Assembly: GCA_025458905.1 (NCBI GenBank)
Contig: JALORN010000013.1
Span: forward strand, 1 to 64,000
Source of the DNA: Steroidobacteraceae bacterium
GTDB taxonomy: Bacteria > Pseudomonadota > Gammaproteobacteria > Steroidobacterales > Steroidobacteraceae
Reading direction: 5' to 3'
Length of the DNA: 64,000 nt
This document shows positions 1,918-52,556 of the stretch, piece after piece; positions within the stretch are counted from its first letter, which is position 1, and each line of letters begins with the position of its first letter. Position numbers and translations under genes: made by a program. The notes beneath the pieces are model-generated. The model worked only from the letters and a program-made list of their open reading frames with translations, ran no database searches and was not told the DNA's origin.

Positions 1918-1993
1918 CCGCCTCTTGATGCGGTGAGGTCGCTACTACATGTAGGATACTTTGGTAGCAGCGTGAGCGGACACCAGCCAAACG

Positions 1994-2920: not shown

Positions 2921-3064
2921 GCGATCCGCAGTCCAAAGCGCCATCGCGTTCCCGGAGGACAGGGCTCATGCGGCATGACTCCGTTGAAACGATCTTGAGA
3001 TGTGCAAAGCCCACTGCCGAGGCCGCGATCATCGCCGCGTAACCCGGGCAACGTATCAGCTCTA

Positions 3065-4057
3065 ATGCGCTATTGGTGGGTCAATCAGAACCAGACCTTC
3101 CGCCAGGAGATTGAGGGTGGATATCTTTGGTCGCCCAAGCGCAATAAGAACGGACATAGGAACCCGTTCTATGAATTCATGCGCGAAGTCGCGCCAGGCG
3201 ATCTCGTCTTTTCCTTCTGCGATACGCGCATCGCTGCATTAGGAATCGTCAGTGGCTACTGTCGGGAGAGCCCTAAGCCGGAGGAGTTCGGTAGCGCCGG
3301 CACGAATTGGAGTCAGATTGGCTGGAGAGTTGAAGTTAGATGGCGACGCCTAGACAACGCCATCAGGCCGAAAGACCATATCTCTCGTCTTCGTCCCGAC
3401 CTCCAAAGAAAGTACGCGCCGCTTACCCCAGTGGGCAACGGTCTTCAAAGTGTTTACCTGACTCGAATCGGGCCCACGCTCGCCAATACTCTGCTAAGTT
3501 TGATTGGTCGTGAGGCGGACGTCGTGGCGGATGCCAGCCAGGAGGTGCGTCGCATCGAGCGCGAGTCGCCAGCTCCTGAGAGTGACATCGAGGAGTGGGA
3601 GCGGCGTGTCGAAGTCGATATCGCGACGGATCATGCTATTCGTGAAACCGAACGAACCGCGCTCGTTCAAGCCCGCCGTGGTCAGGGTCTATTCCGAGAA
3701 AAGGTTCGCGCAATTGAAAGCGCTTGCCGCGTCACGAAGGTCGAGCGAATGGAGCATCTGATCGCCAGCCATGTTCAACCCTGGCGAGACAGCAACAACG
3801 AAGAACGTCTGGATGGCGAGAACGGTCTGTTGCTAACGCCGACAGTTGATCACCTATTTGATAAAGGCTTTATCTCATTCGAGGACAACGGACGGGTGAT
3901 CGTGTCACCGGTGGCCGATCCGGACTCGCTTCGCCGTATGGGTGTTGATCCCGATGGGCGTATGAATGTCGGCGCCTTCTCTGAGGGACAGAGACGTTAC
4001 CTAAATTTTCACCGCGAGAATGTGCTGCGCATGGCGCGTGGCGTTTCGAATCGGTAG
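3065..4057 (+). CDS. HNH endonuclease with EVE-like N-terminal domain (second of a tandem pair)
   Basis: A 330-residue protein. I chose the ATG at 3065 because the EVE-like domain begins at once (MRYWWVNQNQTF), and the 21 codons upstream look non-coding. Residues 1-~130 carry the EVE pattern (GGYLWSPK, PGDLVFSF, AALGIVSGY). A charged linker follows at ~175-225. The C-terminal HNH_2 domain runs ~238-300: ACRVTKVERMEHLIASHVQPW, GENGLLLTPTVDHLFDKGFISF. It is less GC-rich than the window average, like its neighbour 144 bases upstream. The two proteins share layout but little sequence, so they may recognise different modifications or work together. Probable anti-invader restriction function (inference). 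Confidence 0.85.
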   Translation: MRYWWVNQNQTFRQEIEGGYLWSPKRNKNGHRNPFYEFMREVAPGDLVFSFCDTRIAALGIVSGYCRESPKPEEFGSAGTNWSQIGWRVEVRWRRLDNAIRPKDHISRLRPDLQRKYAPLTPVGNGLQSVYLTRIGPTLANTLLSLIGREADVVADASQEVRRIERESPAPESDIEEWERRVEVDIATDHAIRETERTALVQARRGQGLFREKVRAIESACRVTKVERMEHLIASHVQPWRDSNNEERLDGENGLLLTPTVDHLFDKGFISFEDNGRVIVSPVADPDSLRRMGVDPDGRMNVGAFSEGQRRYLNFHRENVLRMARGVSNR

Positions 4058-4358
4058 CAGATGTGTGTTACTTGAAGTTTTTGGCTCCCCGTAGGCGTCG
4101 TCGTTGGCATGATCGGCGGGTGTTTCTGCTACTCACAGCCTCCCGCGCTTGCCCAAGCCAGTTGACGCATGTTCGTGAACCTGAGGGTCGCCCAGCGCCC
4201 CCGACCGACCGATTATCGGGGACGCTTCAGGAATGCTGATGACGATTCTGTGCTTGATTCGGGTGTGAGGCGGGATAGCTGGCCGTGTCGTCACGCAGAC
4301 GCGTTCACGATGACTGCACCGGTATCTTGAATCCCTTCGAAACATTGCAGTCCCCGGC
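4058..4358. other. Intergenic region without recognisable gene
   Basis: About 300 bases between the second HNH gene and the DUF2075 helicase gene. I see no convincing coding frame, RNA gene or strong hairpin. Composition moves from the AT-richer HNH island back to the GC-rich background. It presumably holds the helicase promoter, but no clear -35/-10 pair stands out. Confidence 0.5.
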
Positions 4359-6266: not shown

Positions 6267-6404
6267 ACGGTTCCGAGGGCTCTTGCTCGGTTCGAAGACC
6301 CGCACGAGCACGACGCTAACCTCAACCAAGCGCGGGGATCCCGGCACGTTCTCCGGCATCAAACGGGTGTGCTAGATCAACGCGTCCGGCCTGGACGCGG
6401 ATCC

Positions 6405-7106
6405 TGATGCCGTTGGGAACCGATGACAATCTGCAACAGGTTCGGTTCGGCCTGCTCCGCAGCCGGCCTCGCCCACGTTCAGGAGCGTGGGCATCGCGGC
6501 CAGCGGCCGCACCCGCATCCGGAGGCGCAACTACCGCAACACGGACGAGATCCTCACCTGCGCGCGCGAGTTCGCGCATGAGCTGCTGTCACCCGTGGCC
6601 GCGGATGACGACGGGATCCCGCGCGTCGCCCCCGAGCTCGGCGGGCGCCATGGGCCGAAGCCGAGGCTGGCGCTGCTCGCGAACCTGCAGCAGGAAGCAC
6701 GGACGATCGCGGACACGCTCGTCCAGCTGCACGCGCGCGGCAGGGCGTGGAAGGACATGGGGTGCTCTATTCAGCGCTCTTCGTCGCCGAGGAGATCGCG
6801 ACGAGCCTGGACGCTGCCGGGGTACCCGTCGAGTGGCTGCGCGACGCGCGCTCGAAGCGCTTCTCCGGCGAGCGCGACAGCGTCAAGCTGATGACCAACA
6901 AGAGCAGCAAGGGCCAGCAGTTCCCCGTGGTGGTGGTCGCCGGGGTGGGCACCTTGCCGTATCGGGATCCGGCCGGCGATGCGCGTGATCTCTATGTGGC
7001 GATGACGCGTGCGACCGAACGGCTGCTGATCACGGCGAGCCGGGCGTCGGAGTTCGTGCGGCGGTTGCAGCCGTTGTGCAGGCCCTTGGCGATGGCGGGG
7101 GTGTGA
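6405..7106 (+). pseudogene. Decayed UvrD/Rep-type helicase, C-terminal part
   Basis: Recognisable helicase blocks lie in different frames. TDDNLQQVRF at ~6420 resembles the GDD-Q motif. FRSVGIAASGRTRIRRRNYRNTDEI at ~6478-6550 resembles motif IV, and KLMTNKSSKGQQFPVVVV with DLYVAMTRATERLLIT at ~6885-7050 resembles motifs V/VI. A frame change between ~6440 and 6478, and an apparent one-base loss in the G-run at 6759-6762 (WKDMG|VLYSALF), break it. No helicase N-terminus or Walker A is found upstream, so the gene is truncated and frameshifted. The G-run change alone could be a sequencing error, but the missing 5' end could not. Confidence 0.8.
6999..7106 (+). repeat. Direct repeat, copy 1 (helicase 3' end)
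   Basis: A 108-base segment encoding AMTRATERLLITASRAS...PLCRPLAMAG-stop. It recurs without gaps at 7865-7972 with about 12 mismatches by eye. The two copies flank the toxin-antitoxin pair at 7259-7774. Confidence 0.85.
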
Positions 7107-7258
7107 CTGCAGTCGTGGTCACTGCTCGCGCCTATGCATGTTTCTGGGCAATGACACGCGATTGACGACGGGCGTTGGTTGGCTTTCGCGCACACAATGT
7201 CCGCCGGCTCTCGAAGCGCCAAGGGAAGATTCCACTTCCCTGTCATCCGGAGTAACGT

Positions 7259-7456
7259 ATGCGCGTGACCCAGCCCACCGACAACGCCAAGCAGCAGGCC
7301 AGGCAATTGCTCGAGCAGTTGCCTGACGATGCGACGTGGGACGACGTCGTCTACGAGTTTGCGGTTCGCCGCTCGATCGAGCGCGGCCTCGCGGATGTGG
7401 CGGAAGGGCGCATCCTGTCCTCCGAGCAGCTCAGGGCGGCGTTGGCGCTGGACTGA
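7259..7456 (+). CDS. Type II antitoxin of a ParE/RelE-type module
   Basis: A 65-residue acidic protein. The ATG is preceded by GGAG at 7249-7252. The sequence is helical (ARQLLEQLPDDATWDDVVYEFAVRRSIERGLADVAEGRILS). This is the pattern of small antitoxins found directly upstream of ParE/RelE toxins that lack an obvious DNA-binding domain. The toxin gene begins 15 bases after its stop, as expected for a co-transcribed module in which the antitoxin is made first. It would neutralise the downstream toxin by direct binding. Confidence 0.8.
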   Translation: MRVTQPTDNAKQQARQLLEQLPDDATWDDVVYEFAVRRSIERGLADVAEGRILSSEQLRAALALD

Positions 7457-7471
7457 GTCGAGCCTGCGGCG

Positions 7472-7774
7472 GTGGCCCGGGTTCGGTATGCCCGGCAGGC
7501 GCTGCGCGGCCTTGCGGGCGTGCGTCGCTTCATTTCGATTGATTCGCCGCGCAATGCAGATGCTGTGGTGCGCGCGCTCGTGGACGCCGCGGACTCGCTC
7601 GCAGCTTTTCCCCTGCGCGGCCGGGTAGTGCCTGAGTATGGGCAGGAGGAGGTCCGCGAACTGCTGCTGCATCCCTACCGGATGATCTATCGCGTCAGTG
7701 TCGATGAGGTCGTCGTGCTCTCCGTCATGCACGGTCACCAGCTGCTGCCCGGTGACCTCGAGCGAGAAGATTGA
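7472..7774 (+). CDS. ParE/RelE-superfamily toxin
   Basis: A 100-residue protein starting at GTG. It shows the RelE/ParE fold signature: an N-terminal helix pair (YARQALRGLAGVRRFI...NADAVVRALVDAADSLAAFPLRGRVVPE) followed by VRELLLHPYRMIYRVSVDEVVVLSVMHGHQLLP, the strand pattern with conserved R and YR(I/V)Y-like segment. ParE members block gyrase and RelE members cut mRNA on ribosomes; the C-terminal sequence alone does not decide between them. The module is bracketed by two copies of a helicase 3' end, which suggests insertion or duplication at this spot. Confidence 0.85.
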   Translation: MARVRYARQALRGLAGVRRFISIDSPRNADAVVRALVDAADSLAAFPLRGRVVPEYGQEEVRELLLHPYRMIYRVSVDEVVVLSVMHGHQLLPGDLERED

Positions 7775-7864
7775 AGACAGAGATTCGAGTGATCTGCCGG
7801 GATAGGGTTGAAGCGAATGCCTGGGCGACTGGCGCAAACTCGGGCTGAGGGCCGAAGGTTTGCG

Positions 7865-7972
7865 GCGATGACGCGCTCGACCGAGCGTCTGCTGATCACG
7901 GCGAGCCGAGCGTCGGAGTGCGGGCGGCGGTTACAGCCGTTGTGCAGGCCGTTGGCAGTGGCGGGGGAGTGA
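7865..7972 (+). repeat. Direct repeat, copy 2 (helicase 3' end remnant)
   Basis: A second copy of the 108-base helicase tail at 6999-7106, still open in the same frame (AMTRSTERLLITASRASECGRRLQPLCRPLAVAG, stop at 7970-7972). Upstream of it no helicase sequence can be read, so this is a short remnant and not a gene. Confidence 0.8.
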
Positions 7973-8112
7973 GCGCGGCCAAGCGCTTCGTGTCGGCCTG
8001 CCCGCATTTCTTCGCAAAGACACCGGATTCGCGAAGAGCCAACTCGCCGAGCCTGACGGATGATTACGTCACCAGGGCAGGTCGCTTGCCACTTTTGCGC
8101 ATCCAGGCTTGT

Positions 8113-8481
8113 ATGTCCTACCTCCACTCGCTCTATGATGCCCTGGTCAGCATCAACGTCCCGTCCGGCAAGGCCCCGGCCGTGGTCGATGCCATGGAGC
8201 GCGACATGCTCACGCAGTTGGCCAGCAAATCCGATCTCGAGAATCTGCGGTTAGCCGCCAGGACCGACGTCGAGCATCTACGGTTGGCGATCGAGGCTGA
8301 CATCGAGAACCTCTGGCTGGCCGTCAGGTCCGACATCGATGCGATGGGTGTGCGAGTCGACGCACTGCGTCGCGAGCTCAGGTTGGAGCAGGAACTGCTG
8401 CGCTCCTCGATGACGATCCGTCTGGGCTCGATGTTGGTCGTCGGCCTGGGCGTGCTGTTCGCCGCGCTGAAGCTCACGTGA
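8113..8481 (+). CDS. DUF1640/CCDC90-like coiled-coil membrane protein, paralogue 1
   Basis: A 122-residue protein beginning MSYLHSLYDALVSINVPSGKAPAVVDAMERDML. A coiled coil of repeating D(L/V/I)ENLRLA-type units follows, then a C-terminal membrane helix (SMLVVGLGVLFAALKLT). This is the layout of bacterial DUF1640 proteins, relatives of mitochondrial CCDC90/MCUR1: soluble head, coiled coil, single C-terminal anchor. The start is set by the identical N-terminus in two paralogues (10402 and 16960); all three have TGT before ATG and lack a clear ribosome site. It follows the UvrD-type helicase remnant. Cellular function is unknown. Confidence 0.8.
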   Translation: MSYLHSLYDALVSINVPSGKAPAVVDAMERDMLTQLASKSDLENLRLAARTDVEHLRLAIEADIENLWLAVRSDIDAMGVRVDALRRELRLEQELLRSSMTIRLGSMLVVGLGVLFAALKLT

Positions 8482-8592
8482 CGAGGTAGTCCCCGTCCCG
8501 GAAGTCGCGGGAATTCCACCCTTTGCCCTGCAAGCGGAGTTCCGTCGCCGAACCCGATCAGGCCGCCGCGACAACCGTCCTCCGATGGCAGC

Positions 8593-9117
8593 TCATCGCT
8601 GCGAAGCCAGCAAGGCACGCAGCTGCGCCTCGAAGCGCTCGGTGCGCGCCTCGCCGTCGTGCAACTCGCCGATGGCGGTCGCGGCGATGCGGCCCTGCCG
8701 ATCGACCAGGTAGAACGCCGGCCAGTACCGGTTGTTCATGAGGTTCCAGTAGGCGAAGTCGGGGTCCAGCATCACGGGATACCGGATGCCGAGTTCGCGT
8801 ACGGCGCGCGCCACGTTCGCCGGCACGCGTTCGTGCGCGAATTCGGGCGTGTGGATCGCCACCACCACCAGGCCCTGCGCTGCGTAGGCTGCCGCAGTCG
8901 TCTCGAGCCAGGGCAGCGTGTTGCGACAGTTGCTGCAGCCGAAGGTCCAGAACTCCAGCAGCACGACCTTGCCGCGAAGCCCTGCCAGCGACAGCGGCGG
9001 GGAGTTGATCCACGCGGCGGGTTCTTGGGCGGTGAAGGGTGGGGCGAGAGGTCGCTCCGCCGCCAGGCTGTCGGACGCCAGCACGAGGAGACCCGCGAGC
9101 AGCAAGGGGATGCGCAT
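8593..9117 (-). CDS. TlpA-like thioredoxin-fold thiol-disulfide protein
   Basis: A 174-residue protein with a signal peptide (first ~20 residues, ending SLAAE). It has a TlpA/AhpC-TSA domain: LRGKVVLLEFWTFGCSNCRNTLPWL places the redox CSNC motif near residue 61. It also has VVVAIHTPEF, YPVMLDPDFAYWNLMNNRYWPAFYLVDRQG with the cis-proline region, and GRIAATAIGELH. It should act in the periplasm as a reductant or oxidase of protein thiols. It is probably co-transcribed with the exported SDR gene just upstream (gap 87 bases). Confidence 0.9.
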   Translation of the reverse strand: MRIPLLLAGLLVLASDSLAAERPLAPPFTAQEPAAWINSPPLSLAGLRGKVVLLEFWTFGCSNCRNTLPWLETTAAAYAAQGLVVVAIHTPEFAHERVPANVARAVRELGIRYPVMLDPDFAYWNLMNNRYWPAFYLVDRQGRIAATAIGELHDGEARTERFEAQLRALLASQR

Positions 9118-9204
9118 GTCCAGTTGACCGGCGCAGGCGCCGCGATATTTCCGTCGCGAGCGCGATACTCCTGCGGGCGGGTCGGTCTTGCCAGCTCTCG
9201 AGCG

Positions 9205-10032
9205 CTACTCGCGCGGCATCCTGCCGAACGAGCGGCTCCAGTCGGCGACGGCCGGCGCTGTGCCGCTGGCGACCGAGAACGTGCGGTTCGCGGCAGCCGG
9301 CAGCGCGGCCGCGGTGATCACGACGGTCGCGAGGTCGTCGCGGTTGATGACCATGCCGCGCTGGTACTTGTCGCGCGGGAACATCCGGATCGGCCTCAGG
9401 CCACCCGGGGAATCGTCGATGGCTGCGGGGCCGACGATCACGTACTCGAGGCCGGAGCTCATCAGCGCTTCCTCGGCACGCTTCTTCCAGATCAGCACGT
9501 TGCCGCCGATGTAGTTCAGGAAGTGATTCTTCTGCCCCGAGGAGGACGAGGTGATGATCACGAAGCGCTTCACCCCGGCGGCCTTGGCGGCGCGTGCGAG
9601 ATTGACCGTGCCCTCATAGTCGACGCGCTCGGGGCGGTTGCCGCCGACCGGCATCGAGGTGGCCACGGCCGAGATCACGACGTCGACGCCCTGGAAGGCC
9701 GCGGCCAGGGTCTCGGGCTTCGTGACGTCGGCCTCGACCCAGTCGAACTGGTCGCCGACCTCGGCGCGCGCCGCCGCTGCGTCGCGGGTCATGCCGCGTG
9801 CCTTGATGCCGAGCTGTACCAGCTGGCGCAGCACCACGCGGCCGTTGCGGCCGCTCGCGCCCGCGACCAGCACGGTCCTGGTGCGGAGCAAGCCGAGCGC
9901 CTCGGCGCCGACCAGCTCGCCCGGAGGCAGCGGCGCAGCGACCGCCGGTGCGGCGGGTGCGAGCGTCATGAGGGTGGTGGCGACAATTGCTACGAAGACT
10001 GCCGTGGCCGGTCGCAGGCGGTTCTCGGTCAT
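9205..10032 (-). CDS. Exported NAD(P)-binding atypical SDR (NmrA/NAD(P)H-binding family)
   Basis: A 275-residue protein. A hydrophobic, Ala-rich N-terminus (to ~residue 33) looks like a signal peptide. A Rossmann fold follows with VLVAGASGRNGRVV (TGxxGxxG-like) near residue 54, then DWVEADVTKPETLAAAFQGVDVVISAV and VKRFVIITSSSS. This is the pattern of atypical SDRs such as PF13460 members. An NAD(P)-binding protein behind a signal peptide is unusual but known in this family in proteobacteria. Substrate unknown. It is transcribed with the TlpA-like gene downstream. Confidence 0.85.
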   Translation of the reverse strand: MTENRLRPATAVFVAIVATTLMTLAPAAPAVAAPLPPGELVGAEALGLLRTRTVLVAGASGRNGRVVLRQLVQLGIKARGMTRDAAAARAEVGDQFDWVEADVTKPETLAAAFQGVDVVISAVATSMPVGGNRPERVDYEGTVNLARAAKAAGVKRFVIITSSSSGQKNHFLNYIGGNVLIWKKRAEEALMSSGLEYVIVGPAAIDDSPGGLRPIRMFPRDKYQRGMVINRDDLATVVITAAALPAAANRTFSVASGTAPAVADWSRSFGRMPRE

Positions 10033-10656: not shown

Positions 10657-12736
10657 TGCCCGCCGCCCGGAGATACCGCCAGGTCTCGTCGTAGTGGGAC
10701 GGTAGCCGCGTCGGGTCCGCGCTGTCGCCTGGCGGCACGAACACCACCATCCCCTGCCGCGCGCGCGTCAGCAGCACGCGATACGCGTTCTTCAGATAGT
10801 TCCGGTTATCCGGGCTGTGGATGTTGACCCACCGGTCGCCCCGGAAGTCGTGGCAACTCCACCCGCTGCCCTCCGCCGGCGCCTTCGCGCGGAAGTCCCC
10901 GTCCCAGGTGACGCAGGCCCAGTCGAGCTCGAGCCCCTGTACCTGGAACTCCGTGGCGCAGTCCTCGAGGTACCAACTCGAGCGCACGTCGGTGCGATCG
11001 TTGAGGAACCACTGCACCGGGTCGACGCTGACGCGGATGTCGATCGCATAGGGCTTGAGGCGCATGGCTTTCGACGAGGCGAGGAGGCCGTACTGCTCGT
11101 TGCCGCGCGCCCGTTCGCGCACCCAGGCCTTGGCCTTGTCGAGGTCGCGGGTGATGACGATGGGGTAGCGGTCCTTGAACGATTGGTACGCGGCGGCGGC
11201 GCCCTCGCGGTCGCAGTCGAGCAGTGCCTTGACGAAGGCCGAGACGCGCTCGGCGCGGAACGAGCGCATCGAGACGTGGAGGTGCAGGGCCTGCTCGTCG
11301 AGGTGCACGTTGGGGCGTGTGCGGATGAGCTCGAGCGCGTGGCCGGCGGCGTACTCGCCGTCCACGAGCTGCGAGGAGACGTGCAGGTGCCAGTGCGGGA
11401 AGTGGGTGGTCGCGGCCTGCAGCCACTCGGCGATGCCGGCCTCGCCGGTGTGGATCTCCTGGCCGCCGCCGACCAGGCAGACGATCACCGCCCAGTCGGT
11501 ATGGCGATCCATGTACTGAATCAGGAACTCGGGCTCGGAGTGCGCGAAGTCGGGGATGCCCTTGCGCTGCTTCATGAAGTTCGCGGCCTTGGCACGGTTC
11601 CAGGCGCGCTGCGCCTCGTCGAAGATCACGACGTGGTCGGCGGGTGGCCCGGGATGGCGCAGGGCCTCGTCACGGAAGTGATGGACGTTCTGGATGAAGG
11701 CCTTGACCGGCTTGCCTGCGTTCGCCTTGGAGATGCGCTCGCAGCGGGCCTTGCGGCGCTCGACGTCGTCGCGGGTCAGCGCCTCGCGCAGCACCGCGAC
11801 CAGCGGGCCGTTGCCGGAGAGGAAGACCGCATGCGAAGCGGGCGAAAAAGGGGACGGATTTATTTTCGGCTCGCCGAAAATAAATCCGTCCCCTTTTTCG
11901 CTTGCCTCGCGGTGCTGGGTGGCGAGGTTCAGGCCGACGAGGGTCTTGCCGGCGCCGGGGACGCCGGTAACGAAGCAGAGGATCTTGCGGCGCCGCGTCC
12001 GGGCCTCCTCGACCAGGGACTCGAGGCGCTGCGAGGTGAGGTGCAGGTTCGTGGCACCGGCGTCGTGGCGGGCGATCGCGTGGACGGAGTGCTGGGCGTA
12101 GAGGGCGCGGGCGGCTTCGACGATGGTAGGGGTGGGGCGGTAGGGCGCGGCGCTCCAGGCTGCGGCATCTTGCGAGGCGACCGTGGGGTCGCTGACGGCC
12201 GGGCGAAGTGCCTGGAGCCTGGCAAGCATCGCGCACATCGCGCCGGCGGGGACCGCGACCGGCCGGGCCACTTGGTCGGCAGCAAAATCGAGCGAAAACA
12301 AATCTGATCTACTTTCGCTTTCCGTGGCGACCAGGATCGGGACGATGGCCCGCCCGTGGCTCGCCTCGTGGAAGTTCTTGAGGTCGAGCGCATAGTCCCA
12401 GGCCTGGTCGAGCGCCGAGCGCTCGATCCGCGCCTGGCCCACCTTGAACTCGATCACCACCACGACCCCACCGAGCAGCAGCACCGCATCGATACGCCGG
12501 CCCATGCGCGGGATGGTGAACTCGAGGAACACGGCACCCGCGCGACAGGGCGCCAGCCAGGACTTCAGCAGCGCGATTTCGGCGAGCCAGGCTTGCGCCT
12601 GCGCGGGCTCCACCGCATGGTCGCCGCTGCCCCGGGTCAGGGCACCGAGGATGCTGTCGGGGGTGGCCGCCAGGAAGTCGGGGATGGCTGCGTCGTACCA
12701 GGCTCGGGGGAGGCGGTTGGCGGGAACGGACGCCAT
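10643..12736 (-). CDS. PD-(D/E)XK nuclease-DUF2075 helicase, with in-frame inverted-repeat insertion
   Basis: A 697-residue protein. The N-terminal nuclease-like core is GRRIDAVLLLGGVVVVIEFK (D83, E96, K98). The DUF2075 helicase domain has Walker A GVPGAGKT at 258-265, VVIFDEAQRAW as Walker B, LVGGGQEIHTGE, FQVQGLELDWACV and NAYRVLLTRARQG. About residues 279-298 (EKGDGFIFGEPKINPSPFS) are encoded entirely by a perfect 60-base inverted repeat at 11842-11901. It falls between Walker A and the FLSGNGPLV block, so the protein carries an added loop without loss of frame. It lies 18 bases after the PlsC-like gene on the same strand and meets DUF1640-like paralogue 2 tail to tail. Role unknown; nuclease-helicase of defence or repair type. 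Confidence 0.9.
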   Translation of the reverse strand: MASVPANRLPRAWYDAAIPDFLAATPDSILGALTRGSGDHAVEPAQAQAWLAEIALLKSWLAPCRAGAVFLEFTIPRMGRRIDAVLLLGGVVVVIEFKVGQARIERSALDQAWDYALDLKNFHEASHGRAIVPILVATESESRSDLFSLDFAADQVARPVAVPAGAMCAMLARLQALRPAVSDPTVASQDAAAWSAAPYRPTPTIVEAARALYAQHSVHAIARHDAGATNLHLTSQRLESLVEEARTRRRKILCFVTGVPGAGKTLVGLNLATQHREASEKGDGFIFGEPKINPSPFSPASHAVFLSGNGPLVAVLREALTRDDVERRKARCERISKANAGKPVKAFIQNVHHFRDEALRHPGPPADHVVIFDEAQRAWNRAKAANFMKQRKGIPDFAHSEPEFLIQYMDRHTDWAVIVCLVGGGQEIHTGEAGIAEWLQAATTHFPHWHLHVSSQLVDGEYAAGHALELIRTRPNVHLDEQALHLHVSMRSFRAERVSAFVKALLDCDREGAAAAYQSFKDRYPIVITRDLDKAKAWVRERARGNEQYGLLASSKAMRLKPYAIDIRVSVDPVQWFLNDRTDVRSSWYLEDCATEFQVQGLELDWACVTWDGDFRAKAPAEGSGWSCHDFRGDRWVNIHSPDNRNYLKNAYRVLLTRARQGMVVFVPPGDSADPTRLPSHYDETWRYLRAAGIKAL
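11842..11901. repeat. Perfect inverted-repeat element inside a helicase gene
   Basis: Two 29-base arms (11842-11870 and 11873-11901) are exact reverse complements around a 2-base centre. The core GGGGACGGATTTATTTTC is shared with the elements at 19187, 22008, 25322-25452 and 27190. Its length (60 = 20 x 3) keeps the helicase frame open. It is probably a REP/MITE-like element; no transposase is in the window. Confidence 0.9.
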
Positions 12737-12754
12737 TTGTAGAGGATAACTCGC

Positions 12755-13708
12755 TCAACCGACATCGACCGGGACAGGTTCCAGGAGGGGCCGGTCGACA
12801 CCGTGGGCCACCCCGGCCTGCCACTCCGGGTCGAGCTCGAAGCGGAACCCTGGCCACTCGCCATCGCGCGCCGCGTCGTAATGCCGGGGCGGGGGCGTCC
12901 CCGGCGCGAGGGCTGCGCCTTTGGTGAGCCGCTGCACTCGCCGCCGCAGCGCATCCGGCTCCGCGAGTCGCGTCTCCGTCGCGCCGATCGGCGGCAGGAC
13001 CTGCACCGCCACCCGCTGCCCATAGCGTAGCCGCGCCGAGAACGGATGCTCCCAGATTCGATGCGAACCGGTGATCGCGATCGGTAGCAGGGGCACGGCG
13101 AGTCGCCTGGCCAGATGGAAGGCGCCCGGCAGGAACGCGGTCTCGATGCCGAGGAGGCAGCCTTGGGGAAAGAGCAGCACGTGATCGCCGCTCTCGAGCG
13201 CCGCGCGTGCGGCACGCACCAGGCGGCGATAGGCCGTGGCGCCGGCTTCGGGCTCGATCGCGATGTGTCCGCAGCGCGCGAGGGCGGGGCCGATGTCGGG
13301 CCACTCGAACACTTCGCGGCGCGCGACGAAGCGCATCGGCAGCGGCAGCGTCGCGAGGCAGAGCGCGTCGGCCAGGCCTTCGTGCAGCGCGACGACCAGG
13401 CCCGGCGTGCGAGGCAGGTGTTGCAGGCCGGTCACCTGCAGGTCCACCTGAAGGTGGCGCAGCAATCGCTGCGAGGCAGCTCGCTGGGCTTCGGCGACGC
13501 GGGCGCGGGGCGCATCCTCGGGCAGCGCCGCCAGCCGGTGCAATTGCTGCTGCAGCAGTCGCCGCCCGCGCAGCGCGAAGCGCAGGGCATCCCACCACTT
13601 TCCGGCGTGGAACTCCGGCGCCGGTCCGCGCGGCGGGGTCGGAGCACTCGCGCGTGGGGCGCCCTTCCCGGCTCCTGTGGCGTCGTCAGGCTGGTGGTTG
13701 GGCCTCAC
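12755..13708 (-). CDS. PlsC-like lysophospholipid acyltransferase
   Basis: A 317-residue protein. The start is a GTG at 13708 that overlaps the stop of the SRPBCC gene by four bases (GTGA), indicating translational coupling. Acyltransferase motifs are visible: HEGLAD (HX4D catalytic pair), then AIEPEAGATAYRRLVRAA and LLFPQGCLLGIE. The last is motif III with Gln in place of the usual Glu of FPEG. LPIAITGSHRIWE is the family's motif IV region. The expected reaction is acyl transfer to a lysophospholipid or related acceptor at the inner membrane. About 100 residues of basic, helical sequence precede the core. The Glu-to-Gln change may alter substrate binding. Confidence 0.85.
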   Translation of the reverse strand: MRPNHQPDDATGAGKGAPRASAPTPPRGPAPEFHAGKWWDALRFALRGRRLLQQQLHRLAALPEDAPRARVAEAQRAASQRLLRHLQVDLQVTGLQHLPRTPGLVVALHEGLADALCLATLPLPMRFVARREVFEWPDIGPALARCGHIAIEPEAGATAYRRLVRAARAALESGDHVLLFPQGCLLGIETAFLPGAFHLARRLAVPLLPIAITGSHRIWEHPFSARLRYGQRVAVQVLPPIGATETRLAEPDALRRRVQRLTKGAALAPGTPPPRHYDAARDGEWPGFRFELDPEWQAGVAHGVDRPLLEPVPVDVG

Positions 13709-45048: not shown

Positions 45049-47178
45049 ATGTCCATTGCCCCCCTGTCCCGACCGCGGCGTCTCGCAGCCGCCGCGCTCC
45101 TGCTGTCCGCGCCGGCCCTGCAGGCCGCGGAGGAGCCCGCGCTGGAGGAGGTGACCGTGTCCGCGACGCGCGTGTCGCTGCCGGCGAGCGCGCTGCCGAA
45201 CACGATCCAGGTGATCGGCGAGGAGGCGATCTCGCTGCAGTCGCAGCTGCACGGCTCGGCGGTCGACGTGGTGTCGACCCTGGTGCCGTCGTTCTCGCCG
45301 ACGCGCGAGAAGCTCAGTGGCCAGGGCGAGTCGCTGCGCGGCCGCCGGCCGCTCTACCTGATCGACGGCGTGCCGCAGTCGAATCCGCTGCGCGACGGCT
45401 CGCGCGAGGGCTATACGATCGACCCGTTCTTCGTCGAGCGGGTCGAGGTGATCTTCGGCTCGAACGCCATCCAGGGCATCGGCGCGACCGGCGGCGTCGT
45501 GAACTACGCGACGGTCGCGCCGGCGACCGACGCCGATCGCTGGGGTGGCCGGGTGCTCGCGCAGTTCGGCGCCGACGGCGAGTTCCGCGGCGACTCCGGG
45601 ACGTCGCGGCTCGGCGTGCTCGTGGGACGCGACTTCGGCCGGCTCGACGTCACCGCCGGCGTCGCCTTCCAGTCGCGCGGCGCGTTCTACGACGGCGACG
45701 GGCGGCGCATCGGCGTCGACGGCACGCAGGGCGAGGTGCAGGACTCGGACAGCCTGTCGCTGTACCTGAAGGCCGGGGCCGAGCTCGGCGCCGCGCGGCG
45801 CCTCGAGCTGATGGCGCAGCAGTTCGAGCTCGAGGGCGACGGTGACTACGTCGTCGTGCCGGGGTCGCGGGCGGCGGGCCGGCCGGCGAGCGCGGTCCGC
45901 GGTGCCTCGCCCGGCGTGATCCCGACCAACACGGTGCGCACCGCGTCGCTGACCTATACCGACACGGACCTGCTCGGCGGCCGCCTCACCGCGCAGGCCT
46001 TCCTGCAGGACTTCGAGTCGGTGTTCGGCGGCGGCGTGTTCGCCGACTTCCAGGACCCGCGCATCCAGGCGGGAGGCGGGTTGTTCGACCAGTCCTCGAA
46101 CCACTCGGACAAGCTCGGCCTGCGACTCGCCTACGAGCGGCCGGTCGGTGCGCTCCCGGGCCTGCGCAGCCACTTCGGCGTGGACGTGCTGCGCGACACG
46201 ACCTTCCAGGAGCTGATCGCGACGGGCCGCAAGTGGGTGCCCGAGACGACGTTCGACTCCGTGGCGCCGTTCGCGCAGCTGTTCCAGTCGCTGTTCGACG
46301 AGCGCCTGCTGCTCGCCGCGGGACTGCGCCACGAGTTCGCGCGCCTCGAGGTCGACGACTACGAGACGCTGTGGTTCTACGGCCCGCGGCGCGTGGCGGG
46401 CGGGTCGCCGGAGTTCGACGAGTCGCTGGTGAACCTCGGCGCGACCTGGCGCATCGCAGGGCCGCTCTCGGCCTACGCCTCGTACGCCGAAGGCTTCACG
46501 ATGCCGGACGTCGGCCGGATCCTGCGCGCCGTCGGCACGCCCGGCCAGGACGTCGACGACTTCCTCGATCTGCAGCCCGTGGTGGCCGACAACGTCGAGC
46601 TCGGGCTGGAGTGGCGTGGCGAGGCGCTCACGGCGAGCGCCGCCTATTTCTGGAGCGACTCGGACCGGGGGGCGCTGCTGGTGCTGCGCGGCGGCGACGT
46701 CTTCGAGGTGCAGCGACAGCGCACCGAGATCGAAGGCCTGGAGCTCTCGGCGAGCTGGCGCACGCCGGTGCCCGGGCTGACGCTGTCGAGCGCCTATGCC
46801 GCGCTCGAGGGGCGCACCGACGGCAACGGCGACGGCCGCGTCGACCAGGATCTCGACGGCGCGAACATCTCGCCGGACCGGCTCAACGTCGCGGTCGAGT
46901 ACGCGCGTGGCCCGCTGCTGGCGCGCCTGCAGGCCCAGTCCTACCTGTCGCGCCGCTTCGCCGGGACGCCGGGCGCGGGACGCTTCGAGGGCTACGAGGT
47001 GGCCGATGCGATGCTGCGCTGGAGTGCGCCGCTCGGCGCGTTCACGCTCACGGTGGCGAACCTGCTCGACGAGTCGTACGTCACCTACCACAGCCAGACG
47101 GTGCGCCCGACCGACAACCTGCGCTTCTTTGCCGGCCGCGGCCGCACGGTGTCGCTCGGCTTCGAGAAGCGATTCTGA
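45049..47178 (+). CDS. TonB-dependent receptor (iron/siderophore-type)
   Basis: A 709-residue protein with a signal peptide (cut near LQAAEE) and GAGGA ribosome site. TonB box-like LEEVTVSATR, plug blocks LPNTIQVIGEEAI, SLRGRRPLYLIDGVPQSNPLRDG, ERVEVIFGSNAIQGIGATGGVVNY, then a barrel ending VSLGFEKRF. The YTIDPFFVERVEVIFG context is that of siderophore or Fe-chelate receptors. With the haem receptor two genes earlier it broadens the operon's ligands. Three bases separate it from the PepSY gene. Confidence 0.93.
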   Translation: MSIAPLSRPRRLAAAALLLSAPALQAAEEPALEEVTVSATRVSLPASALPNTIQVIGEEAISLQSQLHGSAVDVVSTLVPSFSPTREKLSGQGESLRGRRPLYLIDGVPQSNPLRDGSREGYTIDPFFVERVEVIFGSNAIQGIGATGGVVNYATVAPATDADRWGGRVLAQFGADGEFRGDSGTSRLGVLVGRDFGRLDVTAGVAFQSRGAFYDGDGRRIGVDGTQGEVQDSDSLSLYLKAGAELGAARRLELMAQQFELEGDGDYVVVPGSRAAGRPASAVRGASPGVIPTNTVRTASLTYTDTDLLGGRLTAQAFLQDFESVFGGGVFADFQDPRIQAGGGLFDQSSNHSDKLGLRLAYERPVGALPGLRSHFGVDVLRDTTFQELIATGRKWVPETTFDSVAPFAQLFQSLFDERLLLAAGLRHEFARLEVDDYETLWFYGPRRVAGGSPEFDESLVNLGATWRIAGPLSAYASYAEGFTMPDVGRILRAVGTPGQDVDDFLDLQPVVADNVELGLEWRGEALTASAAYFWSDSDRGALLVLRGGDVFEVQRQRTEIEGLELSASWRTPVPGLTLSSAYAALEGRTDGNGDGRVDQDLDGANISPDRLNVAVEYARGPLLARLQAQSYLSRRFAGTPGAGRFEGYEVADAMLRWSAPLGAFTLTVANLLDESYVTYHSQTVRPTDNLRFFAGRGRTVSLGFEKRF

Positions 47179-47180
47179 GC

Positions 47181-48299
47181 ATGCGCGCCGCGCTGCGCGC
47201 GCTGCACGCCTGGACCGGCGCCGCCTGCGGGCTGGTGCTGGCGGTGATCGGCCTCTCCGGCGCGCTGCTGGTGTTCGAGGACGATTACCTGCGGGCGACG
47301 CTGCCCGGAGCCGACGCACCGGTGACGACCGACCCGGTAGCGCTCGGCGCGCTGCTCGAGCGCCTCGAGGCCGGTCCCCGTGGCGCTCCGCTGCACGTCG
47401 TCTTCGGCGACGCGGGCATGGCGCTGCACACTGTGCAGTTCGCGCGCAGCGCCGGCGCCTATGTCGACTCCGAGGGCGCCGCCGTGGTGGCCTGGCGCGA
47501 GCCCGTGCGGGTCGAGCAGCGGTTGTTCCGGCTGCATCACTCGCTGTTCGCCGGCGAGGCGGGCGAACGGATCTCCGGCTGGGCGGCGTTGCTGGCGGTC
47601 GCGCTGGCGGCCTCCGGCGCGGTGCTGTGGTGGCCGGCACGCCGCGCGTTCCGGCCCCGGGCCTGGCCGGTGAGCCGCCGCCGCCGCGACGTGCTGGCGC
47701 AGCATCGCGACCTCGGCGCGATCTTCGCCTTGCCGCTGGTCGTGCTCGCACTGACCGGCGCTGCCCTGCACTTCCCGGCGGAGGCGCAGCGGTTGCTCGC
47801 CGTCGTGATGCCGGAGCCGCCCGCACCCAGTGCGGCTGAGCTGGCGCCAGCGCCAGCAGCGATGGCCCGGCCGGGCGACGTCGACTGGCCAGCGGCGCTC
47901 ATGCATGCCCAGGCGCGCTTTCCCGACGCGCAGCTGCGCATCGTCACCTGGCCGGCGCGCCCCGGCGAGCCCGCGACCGTGCGCCTGCGACGCGTCGGTG
48001 AGTGGCATGCCAACGGCCGCACGCTCGTGCGGCTCGACCCAGCGACGGGCAGGGTGCTGGCGACGGTGGACGCGCTCGCGCTGCCCCGGGCCGAGCGTTT
48101 CTTCCACACGCTCTGGCCGGTACACGCCGCGAAGCTCGGCGGGCGGGCGGTGGACCTGCTGACCTGTGCCAGCGGGCTCGCGCTCGCTCTGCTCGGCAGC
48201 CTCGCGAGCTGGGCGTTCGTGGGGCGACGCCTGCCCTCGCGCCTGCGCCAGGTACCGTTCGGGGCCGACCCGCCTGCAGGACGGACACTCGGCCCCTGA
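47181..48299 (+). CDS. PepSY-associated membrane protein (PiuB-like iron-regulated)
   Basis: A 372-residue protein with four membrane segments. The start is MRAALRALHAWTGAACGLVLAVIGLSGALLVFED, then HHSLFAGEAGERISGWAALLAVALAASGAVLWWP, LGAIFALPLVVLALTGAALHFP, and a last helix near 340. The HxW/RLHHSLF and WP pattern is that of PepSY_TM (COG3182) proteins, often co-regulated with TonB receptors and proposed to reduce ferric chelates or haem at the inner membrane. Last gene of the hemP operon. Confidence 0.9.
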   Translation: MRAALRALHAWTGAACGLVLAVIGLSGALLVFEDDYLRATLPGADAPVTTDPVALGALLERLEAGPRGAPLHVVFGDAGMALHTVQFARSAGAYVDSEGAAVVAWREPVRVEQRLFRLHHSLFAGEAGERISGWAALLAVALAASGAVLWWPARRAFRPRAWPVSRRRRDVLAQHRDLGAIFALPLVVLALTGAALHFPAEAQRLLAVVMPEPPAPSAAELAPAPAAMARPGDVDWPAALMHAQARFPDAQLRIVTWPARPGEPATVRLRRVGEWHANGRTLVRLDPATGRVLATVDALALPRAERFFHTLWPVHAAKLGGRAVDLLTCASGLALALLGSLASWAFVGRRLPSRLRQVPFGADPPAGRTLGP

Positions 48300-48351: not shown

Positions 48352-49797
48352 TCAGAGACCGAGCGCCTCCAGGTCGGCCGCGACGGCAGCGAGCTCGGCC
48401 CGTGCCTGCAACGCCCGCCAGCTGGCATCGAGTGCGCGGATGCGTGCGTTCGCTTCGGTCTCCTCGCGGATCTGCACCACGAAGAGATCGCTGGTGCCGA
48501 GCTCGAAGCGCCGGCGCTCGGCGACCGAGAGCTCGGCGGCGCGTCCCTGTTCGGCCGTCGCGACCTCGGCGATGCGCCGGGTGGCGACGATGTCCGCCTG
48601 GATCGTTTCGAGCTCGACGCCGATCTGCTCCTCGAGCTGCTGGCGTCGCCGCTCCTGCGCGTCGATCTCCGCCTCGGACGCCGCCATCTGGCCCCGCGCC
48701 GTGCGCCGCTCGAGCGGCACGGAGAAACGCAGGCCGACCTTCGGCTCGGTGCCGGAGCGCGAGGCGCCCCCGATGCCGGGGTCGCCGAGGTCGCGCGACG
48801 TCTCGAGCACCACGTCGAGCCGCGGCAGGAAGGCATTGCGCGCCAGGGCCAGGCGCTGGCGGGCCTGTTCCATCCGCAGGTCGATCGCCTTGAGGTCGGG
48901 CCGTCCCGCCGCCAGCAGGCGCGTGTCCTCGGGCACGGGCGGCGTCGGTGGCAGGCTGGTGGGCAGCCGCGACGTCCCGGGGACTTCCGGCGTGCCGTCG
49001 GGGCCGCGCAGGAACAGCGAAAGGCGGTTCGCCGCCACGAGCAGCGCCTGCTCGGCCTCGATCACCAGCGACTGTCGGCGCAGCACCGTCTGGTCGTTCT
49101 CGGTGAGCAGGATCCGCGGTCGCAGGCCGCGCTCGACCTGGCGGCGGAAACCGTCCTGCCGCTCCTCGGCGAGCTTCAGCAGGTCGCGCAGGACCTGCAG
49201 CCGCAGGCCGGCAGTGACCCAGTTGCCGTAGGCGTCGATCGCGCGCCGCTGCACGCCGATCGCGACCAGCAGCTGCTCGTTGCGCGCGAGTTCGACGTCG
49301 AGGTCCGCCTGGCCGACCGCGAAGCGCCGGTCGTCGATCATGCGGTCGCGCAGCAGCGCGAACAGCACGCCGACCTTCAGCTCGCCGAGCTCGTTGGTGT
49401 ACTTCTCGTCCTCGTAGACCGGGAAGCGGCCGTTGGAGAGGCTGTAGCCCGCATACGCCTCGCCGCCGATCGACTGCAGCGGCCGCGTCACGGTGCCGCC
49501 GAGCGAGTTGCCGTCGTAGAAGCCGCCGAGGCGCACGTCGCTGTCGGCGCGGAACACGATGTCGAAGGCGCCGTCGGCGGACAGCCGGCGGCCCTCGGCC
49601 GAGCGGACCCGGGCCATGGCCTCGAGCACCTGGGGCGCGTGCTCGCGCGACGAGGCGAGCACCTCGCCGAGGGTCAGCGTCTGGGCGGCGAGCTGCGGCG
49701 CGGCGAACGCGAATCCGGCGAGCAGCACGCACCACGCGAGCACGCGGCATGGGCCGCGCACAGGGCGCGGACGCGAGGCTCGCGGTTCAGGCACCAT
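48352..49797 (-). CDS. TolC-family outer-membrane efflux protein
   Basis: A 481-residue protein with an N-terminal signal (VLAWCVLLAGFAFAAPQLAAQ). Two related helical halves show the OEP pattern: LTLGEVLASSREHAPQVLEAMARVRSAEGRRLSADGAFD and GRPDLKAIDLRMEQARQRLALARNAFLPRLDVVLE, then ELSVAERRRFELGTSDLFVVQIREE. It would form the trimeric outer-membrane channel of a tripartite exporter. It overlaps the HlyD-like gene by 11 bases, third in the operon with the ATPase-dead ABC protein. Confidence 0.9.
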   Translation of the reverse strand: MVPEPRASRPRPVRGPCRVLAWCVLLAGFAFAAPQLAAQTLTLGEVLASSREHAPQVLEAMARVRSAEGRRLSADGAFDIVFRADSDVRLGGFYDGNSLGGTVTRPLQSIGGEAYAGYSLSNGRFPVYEDEKYTNELGELKVGVLFALLRDRMIDDRRFAVGQADLDVELARNEQLLVAIGVQRRAIDAYGNWVTAGLRLQVLRDLLKLAEERQDGFRRQVERGLRPRILLTENDQTVLRRQSLVIEAEQALLVAANRLSLFLRGPDGTPEVPGTSRLPTSLPPTPPVPEDTRLLAAGRPDLKAIDLRMEQARQRLALARNAFLPRLDVVLETSRDLGDPGIGGASRSGTEPKVGLRFSVPLERRTARGQMAASEAEIDAQERRRQQLEEQIGVELETIQADIVATRRIAEVATAEQGRAAELSVAERRRFELGTSDLFVVQIREETEANARIRALDASWRALQARAELAAVAADLEALGL

Positions 49798-50848
49798 TCC
49801 CGGCCTGCATCTCGCCCGTCGGGGTCCCGCGATCGCGGTCGATCGGGCGCTGGAAATCCAGCGGGAAGTCGTTGAGCTGGCGCCACAGCTCGTAGCCGAC
49901 CGAGACGGTGTTCATCATCACCCACCCCTGCACCTTGGCGCCGAGGCGGACGAGAGGCTCGCTCGGCCAGGGCGGCTTGCCCGGGGCCTGCACGACCAGG
50001 ATGCGATACAGGCCGTTGCGCGACGCAGCGGCATCGACGGTCTGCACCACGCCGTCGAAGATGCCGCGCGACACCGCCGGCCAGCCGCTGAACTGCACCG
50101 CCGGCCAGCCCTCGAACTCGAGCCGCACCGTGCGCCCGGGATGCACCAGCGGGATGTCGCGCCCGTCCAGGTAGAGCTCGACGGCGAGCTGGGTGTTCGA
50201 CGGCGCGAACGTCGCGATCGGGTCGCCTTCCTTGACCAGCGTGGCGCTGTCGCCGGCGACGATCACCTGGATGAGGCCGTCGCGCGGCGCCGTGACGACC
50301 TGCGCGCCCTGGCGATTGAGTCGGATGTCGATGCCGGCGAGCTTGGAGCGGGACGCCGCCAGCTTGGAGCGGAAGTCGTCCACCTTGATCAGCGCGAGCT
50401 CCATGTCCTTCGGCGCCGAAAGCCCCTCGCTGACGAGGCTCTTGAGGCGATTGACGTCGCGCTCGGACACGCGCATCGCGGAGCGCAGCGCCGACACCTC
50501 CAGCTCGACCTGGGCGCGCTCCTCGCGCAGCCGCTCGAGCAGCAGCGGGTCGTTGTCGATGATGCGGGCGATCGGGTCGCCCTGCTTCACGACGCTGCCC
50601 TCGGTCACGTACCACTCGGCGATCCGGCCGGGCACGAGGGCGGTGACGGTCTGCACCCGGTCGCGCGGGTCGAGCGAGGTGACCCGGCCCTGGCCGGGTG
50701 CGTTCTGCACCCACGGCACGAAGAACAGGAAGGCGAGCGAGAGCAGCACGCCGACGATCAGCATGATGCCGAGGTTGCGCGCGACCCGTGGAGTGCCGAT
50801 GCTGCGGAGGGTCGAGAAGTGCCGCAGGTCTTCCTCAAGCAGGGACAA
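49787..50848 (-). CDS. HlyD-type periplasmic adaptor
   Basis: A 353-residue protein with one N-terminal membrane helix (NLGIMLIVGVLLSLAFLFFVPWV). It has a lipoyl/barrel-sandwich half VTALVPGRIAEWYVTEGSVVKQGDPIARIIDNDPLL and a helical hairpin (ERAQVELEVSALRSAMRVSERDVNRLKSLV, SKLAASRSKLAGIDIRLNRQGAQ). The second lipoyl half is VVTAPRDGLIQVIVAGDSATLVKEGDPIATFAPS, and the beta-barrel domain follows. It links an inner-membrane transporter to TolC. It overlaps the ABC gene by 14 bases. Confidence 0.92.
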   Translation of the reverse strand: MSLLEEDLRHFSTLRSIGTPRVARNLGIMLIVGVLLSLAFLFFVPWVQNAPGQGRVTSLDPRDRVQTVTALVPGRIAEWYVTEGSVVKQGDPIARIIDNDPLLLERLREERAQVELEVSALRSAMRVSERDVNRLKSLVSEGLSAPKDMELALIKVDDFRSKLAASRSKLAGIDIRLNRQGAQVVTAPRDGLIQVIVAGDSATLVKEGDPIATFAPSNTQLAVELYLDGRDIPLVHPGRTVRLEFEGWPAVQFSGWPAVSRGIFDGVVQTVDAAASRNGLYRILVVQAPGKPPWPSEPLVRLGAKVQGWVMMNTVSVGYELWRQLNDFPLDFQRPIDRDRGTPTGEMQAGNGA

Positions 50849-52556
50849 GCGGGGGCCCCTTGCCGACCTTCGAGCGCAGACGATCGAATTCCTGGCGGTT
50901 GGTGAAGATCTTCTGTTCCTCGCGCCCCAGCCAGAGGTAGCCGTCGAGCGTGACGTCCTCGGGCCGGTTGGTGAAGTAGATCACCGTGGTCCGGGTGGTC
51001 GCGAGGTGCTTGAGCACCGCTTCCATGCGGTGCAGCGACACCATGTCGAACATCGGCGAGAGCACCAGGATGCGGGGCTTCGAGAGCAGCGCGCCGGCCA
51101 GCTTCAGCTGCATCGTCTTCGGCAGCGAGAGCGGCCAGCCGGTCGAGGAGAGCGGCGTCTGCAGGCCCTCGGGGAGCATCGTGGTGCGCTCCAGCAGGCC
51201 GACGAGCTTGAGGGCGGCGATGACCTCGGCGGGGTCGCCGCCGGTGTTGGAGAGCTTCAGGTATTCCTCGATCGTGGTCTCGACGATGTTCGGGCGGTCG
51301 AGGACGATCACGTCGCTGCGCAGCTCGACGATGTCGAGCGAGGCGATGTCCACGCCACCGAGCACCACCAGGCCCGACTCGGGGCGCAGGTGGCGCTTGA
51401 GCAGGCGCGAGAACAGGCGCTCCATGCCCGGGTCGCCGCAGGCGACCAGGCTCGCGCCCTCGGGCAGGGTGAGGTTGAACTGCACGGGTCCGAATTCGTG
51501 CGTGAACCGCACGTTGTTCAGCACCAGGGTCGCGCCGGGCGGCCGCCGCGCGTGCCTGACGCCCTCGCCCCGGTTCTCCTGCTTCAACGAGTAGATCAGG
51601 TTCAGCTCGTCGAGGCTCGCGACCAGGTCGAAGAAGTACTCGAGGTAGGTGCCGAGCTGCGCGACGCCTGCGTACACGCCGGAGAGGATCAGCTCGGCAG
51701 CGACCAGCTGGCCGATGGTCAGCTGCTCGCGGATGACCAGCCAGCCGCCGAGCGCCAGCAGCGCGGCGCTGGCCACCGCATACAGCAGGAAAAGCGCGAT
51801 GTTCTGCGGGAAGAGGCGGCCGAAGTAATCCTTCTGCGCCTGGATGTATTCCGCGGTGCGCTCCTCGGTGCGCTGCATCGCGAACTCGAGGTGGCGGCCG
51901 GACTTGTAGAAGCCGTCCGAGGCGCCCACGCACTCGAGCCAGTGCGCCAGCGCGTACTTCTGCCGGCAGGCCTCGACCGAGGTGTTCATGGCGCCGTTCA
52001 GGAACACGCGCCAGATGATCCACAGCAGGAGGCCGAACAGCAGGTTGAAGATCAGGAAGAACGGGTGGTAGAAGGAGGTGAGGATCAGGCCGATGCCGCC
52101 CTGCAGCAGGATCGCGAAGCCGCCGACGAACAGGCCCGGGATGGCCTTGTTGACCGTCATCAGCTCGAAGTAGCGGTTGAGGAGGTCGGAGCGACGGTCG
52201 TCCTGCAGGAACGGGTTCTCGGCGTGCAGCACGCGCACCGTGATCTCGGCGGCGAGGCGCGCGACGAAGCGGCGCCTGAAGATCTCCATCAGGTAGGTGC
52301 GGAAGGCGCTGAGCAGTGCCCAGAGCAGCAGCAGCACCAGCAGGATCCCGGACAGTGCCAGCAGCGGGTTGAGCATCCCGGTGTTGGCGATGCTGTTGAT
52401 CAGCATCTGGACCGAGATCGGGGTGGCGAGCGACAGCAGCGCGATGCCGATGCCGTAGATGATGGCCAGCGTGATGAAGTTGCGGTCCGGCCCGATGATC
52501 GGGCCGGCCCACGCGAAAACGTCCCTGAGCCGAACACCGCCGGCGGAGCCTGCCAA
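50835..52556 (-). CDS. ABC exporter-like protein with fully degenerate ATPase domain
   Basis: A 573-residue protein from a TTG start. Residues ~20-320 are an ABC type-1 exporter membrane domain with six helices (ITLAIIYGIGIALLSLATPISVQMLINSI, LLALSGILLVLLLLWALLSAF). Residues ~340-560 align along the whole length of an ABC ATPase but lack every catalytic motif. Walker A is GDPGMERL (374-381, no GKS/T), the Q-loop is VLDRP, the signature is LSLPKTM instead of LSGGQ. Walker B is ILVLSPM without D-E, and the H-loop His is Asn (FTNRP, ~530). The frame is intact and conserved in layout (GVDIASLDIVELRSDV), so it is not a recent pseudogene. It leads the HlyD and TolC genes. It cannot work as a normal ATP-driven pump alone. 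Confidence 0.85.
   Translation of the reverse strand: MAGSAGGVRLRDVFAWAGPIIGPDRNFITLAIIYGIGIALLSLATPISVQMLINSIANTGMLNPLLALSGILLVLLLLWALLSAFRTYLMEIFRRRFVARLAAEITVRVLHAENPFLQDDRRSDLLNRYFELMTVNKAIPGLFVGGFAILLQGGIGLILTSFYHPFFLIFNLLFGLLLWIIWRVFLNGAMNTSVEACRQKYALAHWLECVGASDGFYKSGRHLEFAMQRTEERTAEYIQAQKDYFGRLFPQNIALFLLYAVASAALLALGGWLVIREQLTIGQLVAAELILSGVYAGVAQLGTYLEYFFDLVASLDELNLIYSLKQENRGEGVRHARRPPGATLVLNNVRFTHEFGPVQFNLTLPEGASLVACGDPGMERLFSRLLKRHLRPESGLVVLGGVDIASLDIVELRSDVIVLDRPNIVETTIEEYLKLSNTGGDPAEVIAALKLVGLLERTTMLPEGLQTPLSSTGWPLSLPKTMQLKLAGALLSKPRILVLSPMFDMVSLHRMEAVLKHLATTRTTVIYFTNRPEDVTLDGYLWLGREEQKIFTNRQEFDRLRSKVGKGPPLVPA

Follow-up and report, generated by a model that had tools for sequence, protein, structure and literature searches.

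A family of ABC exporter-like proteins with eroded ATPase motifs: candidates for ATP-independent export with HlyD- and TolC-type partners

Gene arrangement and domains at the locus

The window analyzed here comprises 64,000 nucleotides of contig JALORN010000013.1 from a Steroidobacteraceae bacterium and contains three overlapping genes on the minus strand. The pseudo-ABC exporter gene (50835–52556, −) encodes 573 amino acids from a TTG codon without any internal stop, so the intact frame described in an earlier sequence-only reading was confirmed; the stop-to-stop frame comprises 616 aa, and the exact start is therefore uncertain. The other two genes encode a HlyD-type periplasmic adaptor of 353 aa (49787–50848, −; Pfam HlyD_3, 9.9e-15) and a TolC-type outer-membrane protein of 481 aa (48352–49797, −; Pfam OEP, 4.4e-30), and relatives have the same two neighbors. 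The overlaps noted in that reading amount to 14 nt between the ABC and HlyD frames and 11 nt between the HlyD and TolC frames.

The pseudo-ABC protein has the layout of an ABC half-exporter, with a six-helix transmembrane domain (TMD) and a domain resembling a nucleotide-binding domain (NBD). The TMD (residues 9–335; 51552–52532, −), which is the better-conserved half in the family, was assigned by Pfam ABC_membrane (PF00664, 2.3e-9), hydrophobic segments and identity comparison. The eroded NBD (residues 340–545; 50922–51539, −) was assigned by a motif table and by matches of the NBD part alone (234 aa) to solved ABC NBDs in the PDB (E 1.2e-24). The whole protein matches HlyB across residues 10–526 (E 2.9e-25), while ABC_tran was absent from its Pfam scan at E ≤ 1. 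By these sequence comparisons, the fold relationship of the eroded NBD to ABC NBDs is real. A four-sequence AlphaFold2 model of the protein had a pLDDT of 42.6, too low to be of use.

Alignment to canonical ABC proteins located the positions of all five catalytic motifs, and each of them is replaced as had been read from the sequence: Walker A by GDPGMERL (residues 374–381; 51414–51437, −), the Q-loop by VLDRP (residues 418–422; 51291–51305, −), the LSGGQ signature by PLSLPKTM (residues 475–482; 51111–51134, −), Walker B by ILVLSPM (residues 496–502; 51051–51071, −) and the H-loop His by Asn530 (50967–50969, −).

Members and distribution of the family

Counting the window protein, the family set comprised 82 distinct members, which come from Sphingomonadaceae, Bacteroidota and the class to which the window belongs. 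It formed a clade in both a TMD-only tree (SH-like 1.0) and an NBD-only tree (SH-like 0.995). The sequence-only reading had named close homologs with intact Walker A and Walker B as a sign of local decay; the nearest relatives, from three sphingomonad MAGs (66–70% identity), carry the same replaced motifs instead, and the expected conservation across genera was borne out, with members in 17 of the 96 genera of the sphingomonad family.

At E ≤ 1e-40, 43 of the 347 sphingomonad-family genomes had a member, as did 11 of 369 genomes of the window's own class, 6 of the 299 genomes of a phylum sample and 2 of 98 close relatives of the window genome, one of the two being the window genome itself. Since this threshold misses members from family f64, the genome tallies are lower bounds. 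Thirty of the 43 sphingomonad copies were fetched as loci and two more were read later. In family f182, 40 of 121 genomes were positive with a query of the L026 type, and in the window's genus the gene was absent from all 23 other genomes searched. Relatives were present in 17 of 72,556 plasmid records, 15 of them from Sphingomonadales (48–55%) and two from Persicobacter (Bacteroidota, 27–29%), and later queries added members from Aureibacter and Riemerella. The Riemerella record (L138), deposited as a plasmid, holds rplU, murB and rsmI and may be a chromosome fragment. No relative was found in the viral contigs searched. Two damaged copies were kept outside the 82-member set: one (L157, genome G778) is frameshifted within the NBD; the other, from a Sphingopyxis plasmid (L159), is cut off next to an IS3 element, with neither HlyD nor TolC in the 11 kb read.

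Horizontal transfer is suggested by the patchy distribution, together with a window copy whose closest counterparts belong to another class. A gene 7 kb away matches the window genome's own genus and family at 69–78%, by which the window contig looks genuine.

Graded loss of the ATPase motifs

ATP hydrolysis is the defining property of ABC exporters, and judged by its motifs the pseudo-ABC protein does not qualify as an ABC ATPase in the catalytic sense. As controls we used 23 entries, representing 22 distinct exporters from 14 genomes. Walker A and the Walker B Asp-Glu (DE) pair were present in 23/23 and LSGG[QE] in 22/23 of these entries. One control (L089; G080:C18:8000-12000) is not fully canonical, with an aligned signature other than LSGGQ and Asn in the H-loop. 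Its Walker A and B are intact, and about 1.5 kb from it there is another ABC_membrane gene, with whose product it may form a classical heterodimer carrying one degenerate site.

In the family, neither LSGG[QE] nor the Q-loop Gln was intact in any of the 82 members. Walker A was intact in 20 members, which are basal, the Walker B DE pair in five and the H-loop His in five; five members keep both Walker A and the Walker B DE pair. The loss of all motifs therefore did not hold at family level as it does for the window protein: LSGGQ and the Q-loop Gln are gone throughout, but Walker A is kept in 20 of 82 members, so the loss is graded. To judge from this pattern, these 20 members may still bind ATP. 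The f182 members include a type of about 700 aa that retains Walker A and one of about 560 aa without it. The window clade has neither an acidic residue at the place of Walker B nor a Lys at that of Walker A, and the replaced motifs differ freely between subclades. In three further members, from f64, which were found via the adaptor and come on top of the 82, the NBD is still more eroded; the one scanned had neither ABC_membrane nor ABC_tran in Pfam at E ≤ 0.01. Pfam ABC_tran still matches the f182 members scanned and some of the scanned Bacteroidota members, was absent in L013 (Novosphingobium aromaticivorans DSM 12444, pNL2), L022 and L137, and was below the cut-off in L010. As far as the alignments tell, the ATPase has been eroded stepwise, whereas the membrane channel has been kept together with its partner proteins.

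Constraint on the TMD and the NBD

The TMD was the more similar domain in 3280 of 3321 family pairs (median identities 36.2% for the TMD versus 26.6% for the NBD), whereas among the canonical exporters plus MsbA this was so in only 2 of 253 pairs (medians 16.7 versus 38.8%). At a TMD identity of 25–45%, family pairs had median NBD identities of 23–27%; six HlyB/Cva-like and six LapB-like control pairs with TMD identities of 28–43% had NBD identities of 44–54% (both names were assigned by us to two canonical secretion subfamilies). Three MsbA-like orthologs provided a milder and fairer control, in which the two domains were equally conserved (TMD 69–76%, NBD 70–74%), and in the window's own clade NBD and TMD were likewise equally conserved. 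The inversion is thus clearest in sequence comparison with secretion-type subfamilies.

Between the window gene and four relatives, dN/dS was 0.24–0.44 in the NBD and 0.25–0.36 in the TMD, rough values with dS near 1. The NBD is still under purifying selection and hence does something, so that it would appear to be retained as a fold and not as an enzyme.

Within the TMD, Q50, R128, Y163, H164, K200 and E288 are invariant in 82/82 members. H164 (codon 52065–52067, −) lies between TM3 and TM4 and E288 (codon 51693–51695, −) in TM6, where it aligns with F288 of Escherichia coli MsbA; neither occurs in any of the 22 canonical controls. The three f64 members retain Q50, R128, Y163, H164, Q283, E288 and Y309 and have lost K200. 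A second acidic pair, E306 and D310, lies low on TM6 (residues 306–310; 51627–51641, −), near the position of LmrA E314. An acid occurs at 306 in 71/82 members versus 0/22 controls and at 310 in 76/82 members versus 1/22 controls; these acids are missing in some members, including all three from f64.

LmrA E314 in TM6 is described as necessary for proton-coupled transport in excerpts of PMC6155054 and PMC2704374, and an excerpt of PMC4979069 gives MsbA N346 as equivalent to LmrA H353. Through this equivalence, and assuming no gap between, E314 corresponds to residue 307, which the two acids flank.

Gene neighborhood and the search for a partner ATPase

With the ABC gene as the entry point, 58 distinct loci were collected; HlyD adjoined the gene in 57 of them and TolC accompanied it in 56. 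The constant company of both partners that had been anticipated is therefore the rule, with exceptions: the contig of L002 ends inside HlyD, the Sphingopyxis copy is cut by the IS element and three loci have no adjacent TolC. In the f64 loci, no TolC was present within the 8.5 kb read. When 369 genomes were searched with the adaptor, all 14 hits lay beside a member (11 in genomes already known, three newly found in f64), and in these genomes the adaptor was never beside a canonical ABC gene.

Clustering of ORFs of at least 80 aa in 30 loci revealed nothing recurrent beyond the trio and LysR genes in four of them, and 736 small ORFs in 32 loci gave no convincing recurrent family; the clusters of small and large ORFs resembled antisense or reading-frame shadows, plus a few LysR genes. 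In the window, a TraB/GumN-family gene is divergent to the pseudo-ABC gene at a distance of 247 bp. By sequence reading, a TonB-dependent-receptor-like gene and, after it, a gene for a PepSY-like membrane protein (45049–48299, +) converge on the trio, and TonB-like genes lie upstream of the trio in L001 and L010, with no recurrence in other loci. On a Sphingobium baderi plasmid (L014, about 3200–9600), a His-Xaa-Ser radical-SAM system (hxsB, hxsC), an S8 peptidase and an AAA ATPase are located directly 5′ of the trio. Sphingobium pHAL16 (L011) has a DUF2309 gene (1362–3914) directly 5′ and a carbonic anhydrase gene (12286–13032) some kilobases 3′ of it.

A second canonical ABC gene pairing with the pseudo-ABC gene had been named as the observation that would make it half of an ordinary heterodimer. 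No ABC gene was found beside the trio in the annotated loci. In an ABC_membrane scan of 20 carriers, each encoded at least two other ABC_membrane proteins; four carriers (G982, G952, G790 and G843) had no more than two. Of the eight proteins in these four carriers, six were read; they are intact and belong to two widespread housekeeping types, which we named MsbA-like and Atm1-like; the second type we take to be Atm1-like, and in an NCBIfam check of five such exporters one reached the MsbA_rel cut-off. The scan of the 20 carriers yielded no dedicated partner ABC, and such a partner is unlikely.

Proposed mechanism and alternative explanations

We propose that the three genes encode a tripartite trans-envelope exporter whose inner-membrane part would be a homodimeric ABC-fold transporter without ATP hydrolysis, the NBD staying as a folded and docked structural domain. 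The TMD would drive substrate export, most likely by coupling to a gradient of protons or other ions, with protonatable residues found only in the family (E288 in TM6, mostly also the acids at 306 and 310, and H164 at the periplasmic TM3–TM4 turn) as the link, and HlyD and TolC would take the substrate across periplasm and outer membrane. The energy source would thus probably be other than ATP. An ATP-independent, probably ion-coupled tripartite exporter, working by analogy like SbmA or NBD-less LmrA/MsbA, has in our estimate a probability of about 45%. The precedents of SbmA and of NBD-less LmrA and MsbA make an ion-driven exporter the best-supported reading, and the carriers with only two other ABC exporters count for an ATP-independent one. 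The motif losses, the clade in both trees, the stronger conservation of the TMD, its invariant residues and the near-constant adaptor also count for the proposed mechanism. Several observations count against it, namely the five members with both Walker A and Walker B DE, the 20 that may still bind ATP, the acids at 306 and 310 that are not universal and the K200 lost in f64, the position of LmrA E314 on 307 instead of on an acid itself, the glutamate ladder of SbmA compared with a single invariant, presumably buried Glu here, and the purifying selection on the NBD.

Alternatively, the protein could be a gated passive conduit or facilitator, in which the TMD opens toward HlyD and TolC and the substrate leaves down its own gradient without energy coupling. 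The lost ATPase motifs, the lack of a partner ATPase in the carriers scanned and the lack of a conserved cargo gene adjoining the trio in the clustered loci all agree with this, but the invariant ionizable TMD residues would then need another role and a leak path across the inner membrane would be costly; we regard such a conduit as unlikely. Among the options of a passive channel, a conduit and an ion-driven transporter, the conserved TM6 carboxylates favor ion coupling.

A scaffold or regulator, which does not transport but positions HlyD and TolC for another inner-membrane pump or senses nucleotide, would fit the selection on the NBD and the Walker A of the 20 basal members. It appears improbable, as conservation lies with the TMD rather than the NBD, and clustering of the 30 loci showed no recurrent gene for a second pump.

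ATP hydrolysis might also be borrowed from an unlinked canonical ABC half-transporter in a heterodimer. According to an excerpt of PMC7756269, exporters that are heterodimers with a single degenerate site are common, and all 20 carriers encode at least two other ABC_membrane proteins; known degenerate pairs, however, keep one full catalytic site, and here both halves of any shared site would be without Walker A or LSGGQ on the pseudo-ABC side. With only two such proteins to choose from in four carriers, the six of them read being intact and of widespread types, and none beside the trio in the annotated loci, we find this quite improbable.

That the replaced motifs still hydrolyze ATP slowly, as a residual or non-canonical ATPase, would agree with the retained NBD fold but hardly with the absent Walker B acid and Walker A Lys of the window clade or with motifs that vary freely among subclades, and we consider it very doubtful. 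A recent local pseudogene or an assembly artefact could be suspected from a draft genome of 109 contigs and from the 23 congeners without the gene, but is hardly credible: relatives carrying the same replaced motifs rule out a local pseudogene, and both the NBD dN/dS and the genus-level match of the neighboring gene speak against it.

If the proposal of an ion-driven exporter is extended to the history of the family, the graded loss may reflect a natural and ancient conversion in which a type I exporter powered by ATP became a secondary, ion-driven tripartite exporter, with intermediates preserved, a reading we put forward tentatively. The putative intermediates, offered with the same reserve, would be members that bind ATP but are impaired in hydrolysis, members without Walker A and members with a nearly unrecognizable NBD, all with the same TM6 Glu and adaptor. 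If true, this conversion would amount to an energization class of its own in trans-envelope export, separate from the lineage of SbmA, and the family would show how a primary pump can become a secondary pump. Claims of ion-gradient use by ABC membrane domains have so far rested on laboratory-truncated proteins and SbmA; a natural family with graded ATPase loss, occurring in many bacteria that can be cultured, would allow such claims to be tested in a native setting. As a warning for annotation, public records name family members 'ABC transporter ATP-binding protein'.

Comparison with known systems

A literature search of open-access papers, subscription papers being outside its scope, returned no description of the pseudo-ABC family. 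With HlyB-type type I secretion exporters the family shares full-length TMD and NBD homology and the operon with HlyD and TolC. It differs from them in its lost catalytic motifs, in the lack of a recurrent candidate cargo gene in the loci clustered, in core members without the extra N-terminal stretch of about 150 aa, and in a TMD with the invariant E288 and H164, which are absent in the 22 canonical exporters. Of the features of a type I secretion system, the HlyD/TolC operon is thus present (57/58 and 56/58 loci), but the ABC protein is predicted not to hydrolyze ATP. Likewise, the TMD and homologous NBD of the ABC exporter type IV fold are present, but Walker A, LSGGQ, Walker B and the Q- and H-loops are not. 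Heterodimeric exporters such as TM287/288, TmrAB and BmrCD also have a degenerate NBD keeping its fold, but there a partner gene restores one complete site, and no dedicated partner was found here.

An excerpt of PMC13316013 describes SbmA as a transporter of ABC descent that is driven by protons and contains a glutamate ladder. SbmA/BacA proteins (SLiPT) resemble the family in an ABC-exporter-like TMD without ATP use and in an ABC ancestor (PMC13316013, excerpt). SLiPTs, however, have neither NBD nor coupling helices, possess the glutamate ladder and import, whereas the pseudo-ABC protein keeps an eroded NBD and one invariant, presumably buried Glu and has an operon that suggests export. For the buried glutamates, a comparison by sequence alignment gives an invariant E288 and acids at 306 and 310 in most members. 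SbmA_BacA was absent from the Pfam scan of the window protein at E ≤ 1, and by sequence the family is not a member of the SLiPTs.

Transport with proton coupling has been reported for NBD-less LmrA (excerpts of PMC6155054 and PMC2704374) and for NBD-less MsbA (excerpt of PMC4979069). LmrA-MD and MsbA-MD, as described in these excerpts, resemble the family as ABC TMDs with reported ion coupling without an NBD, and LmrA has E314 in TM6, which aligns to residue 307 and not to the E288 of the family. Both are, however, natural ATPases truncated in the laboratory, whereas the family has lost its ATPase in nature.
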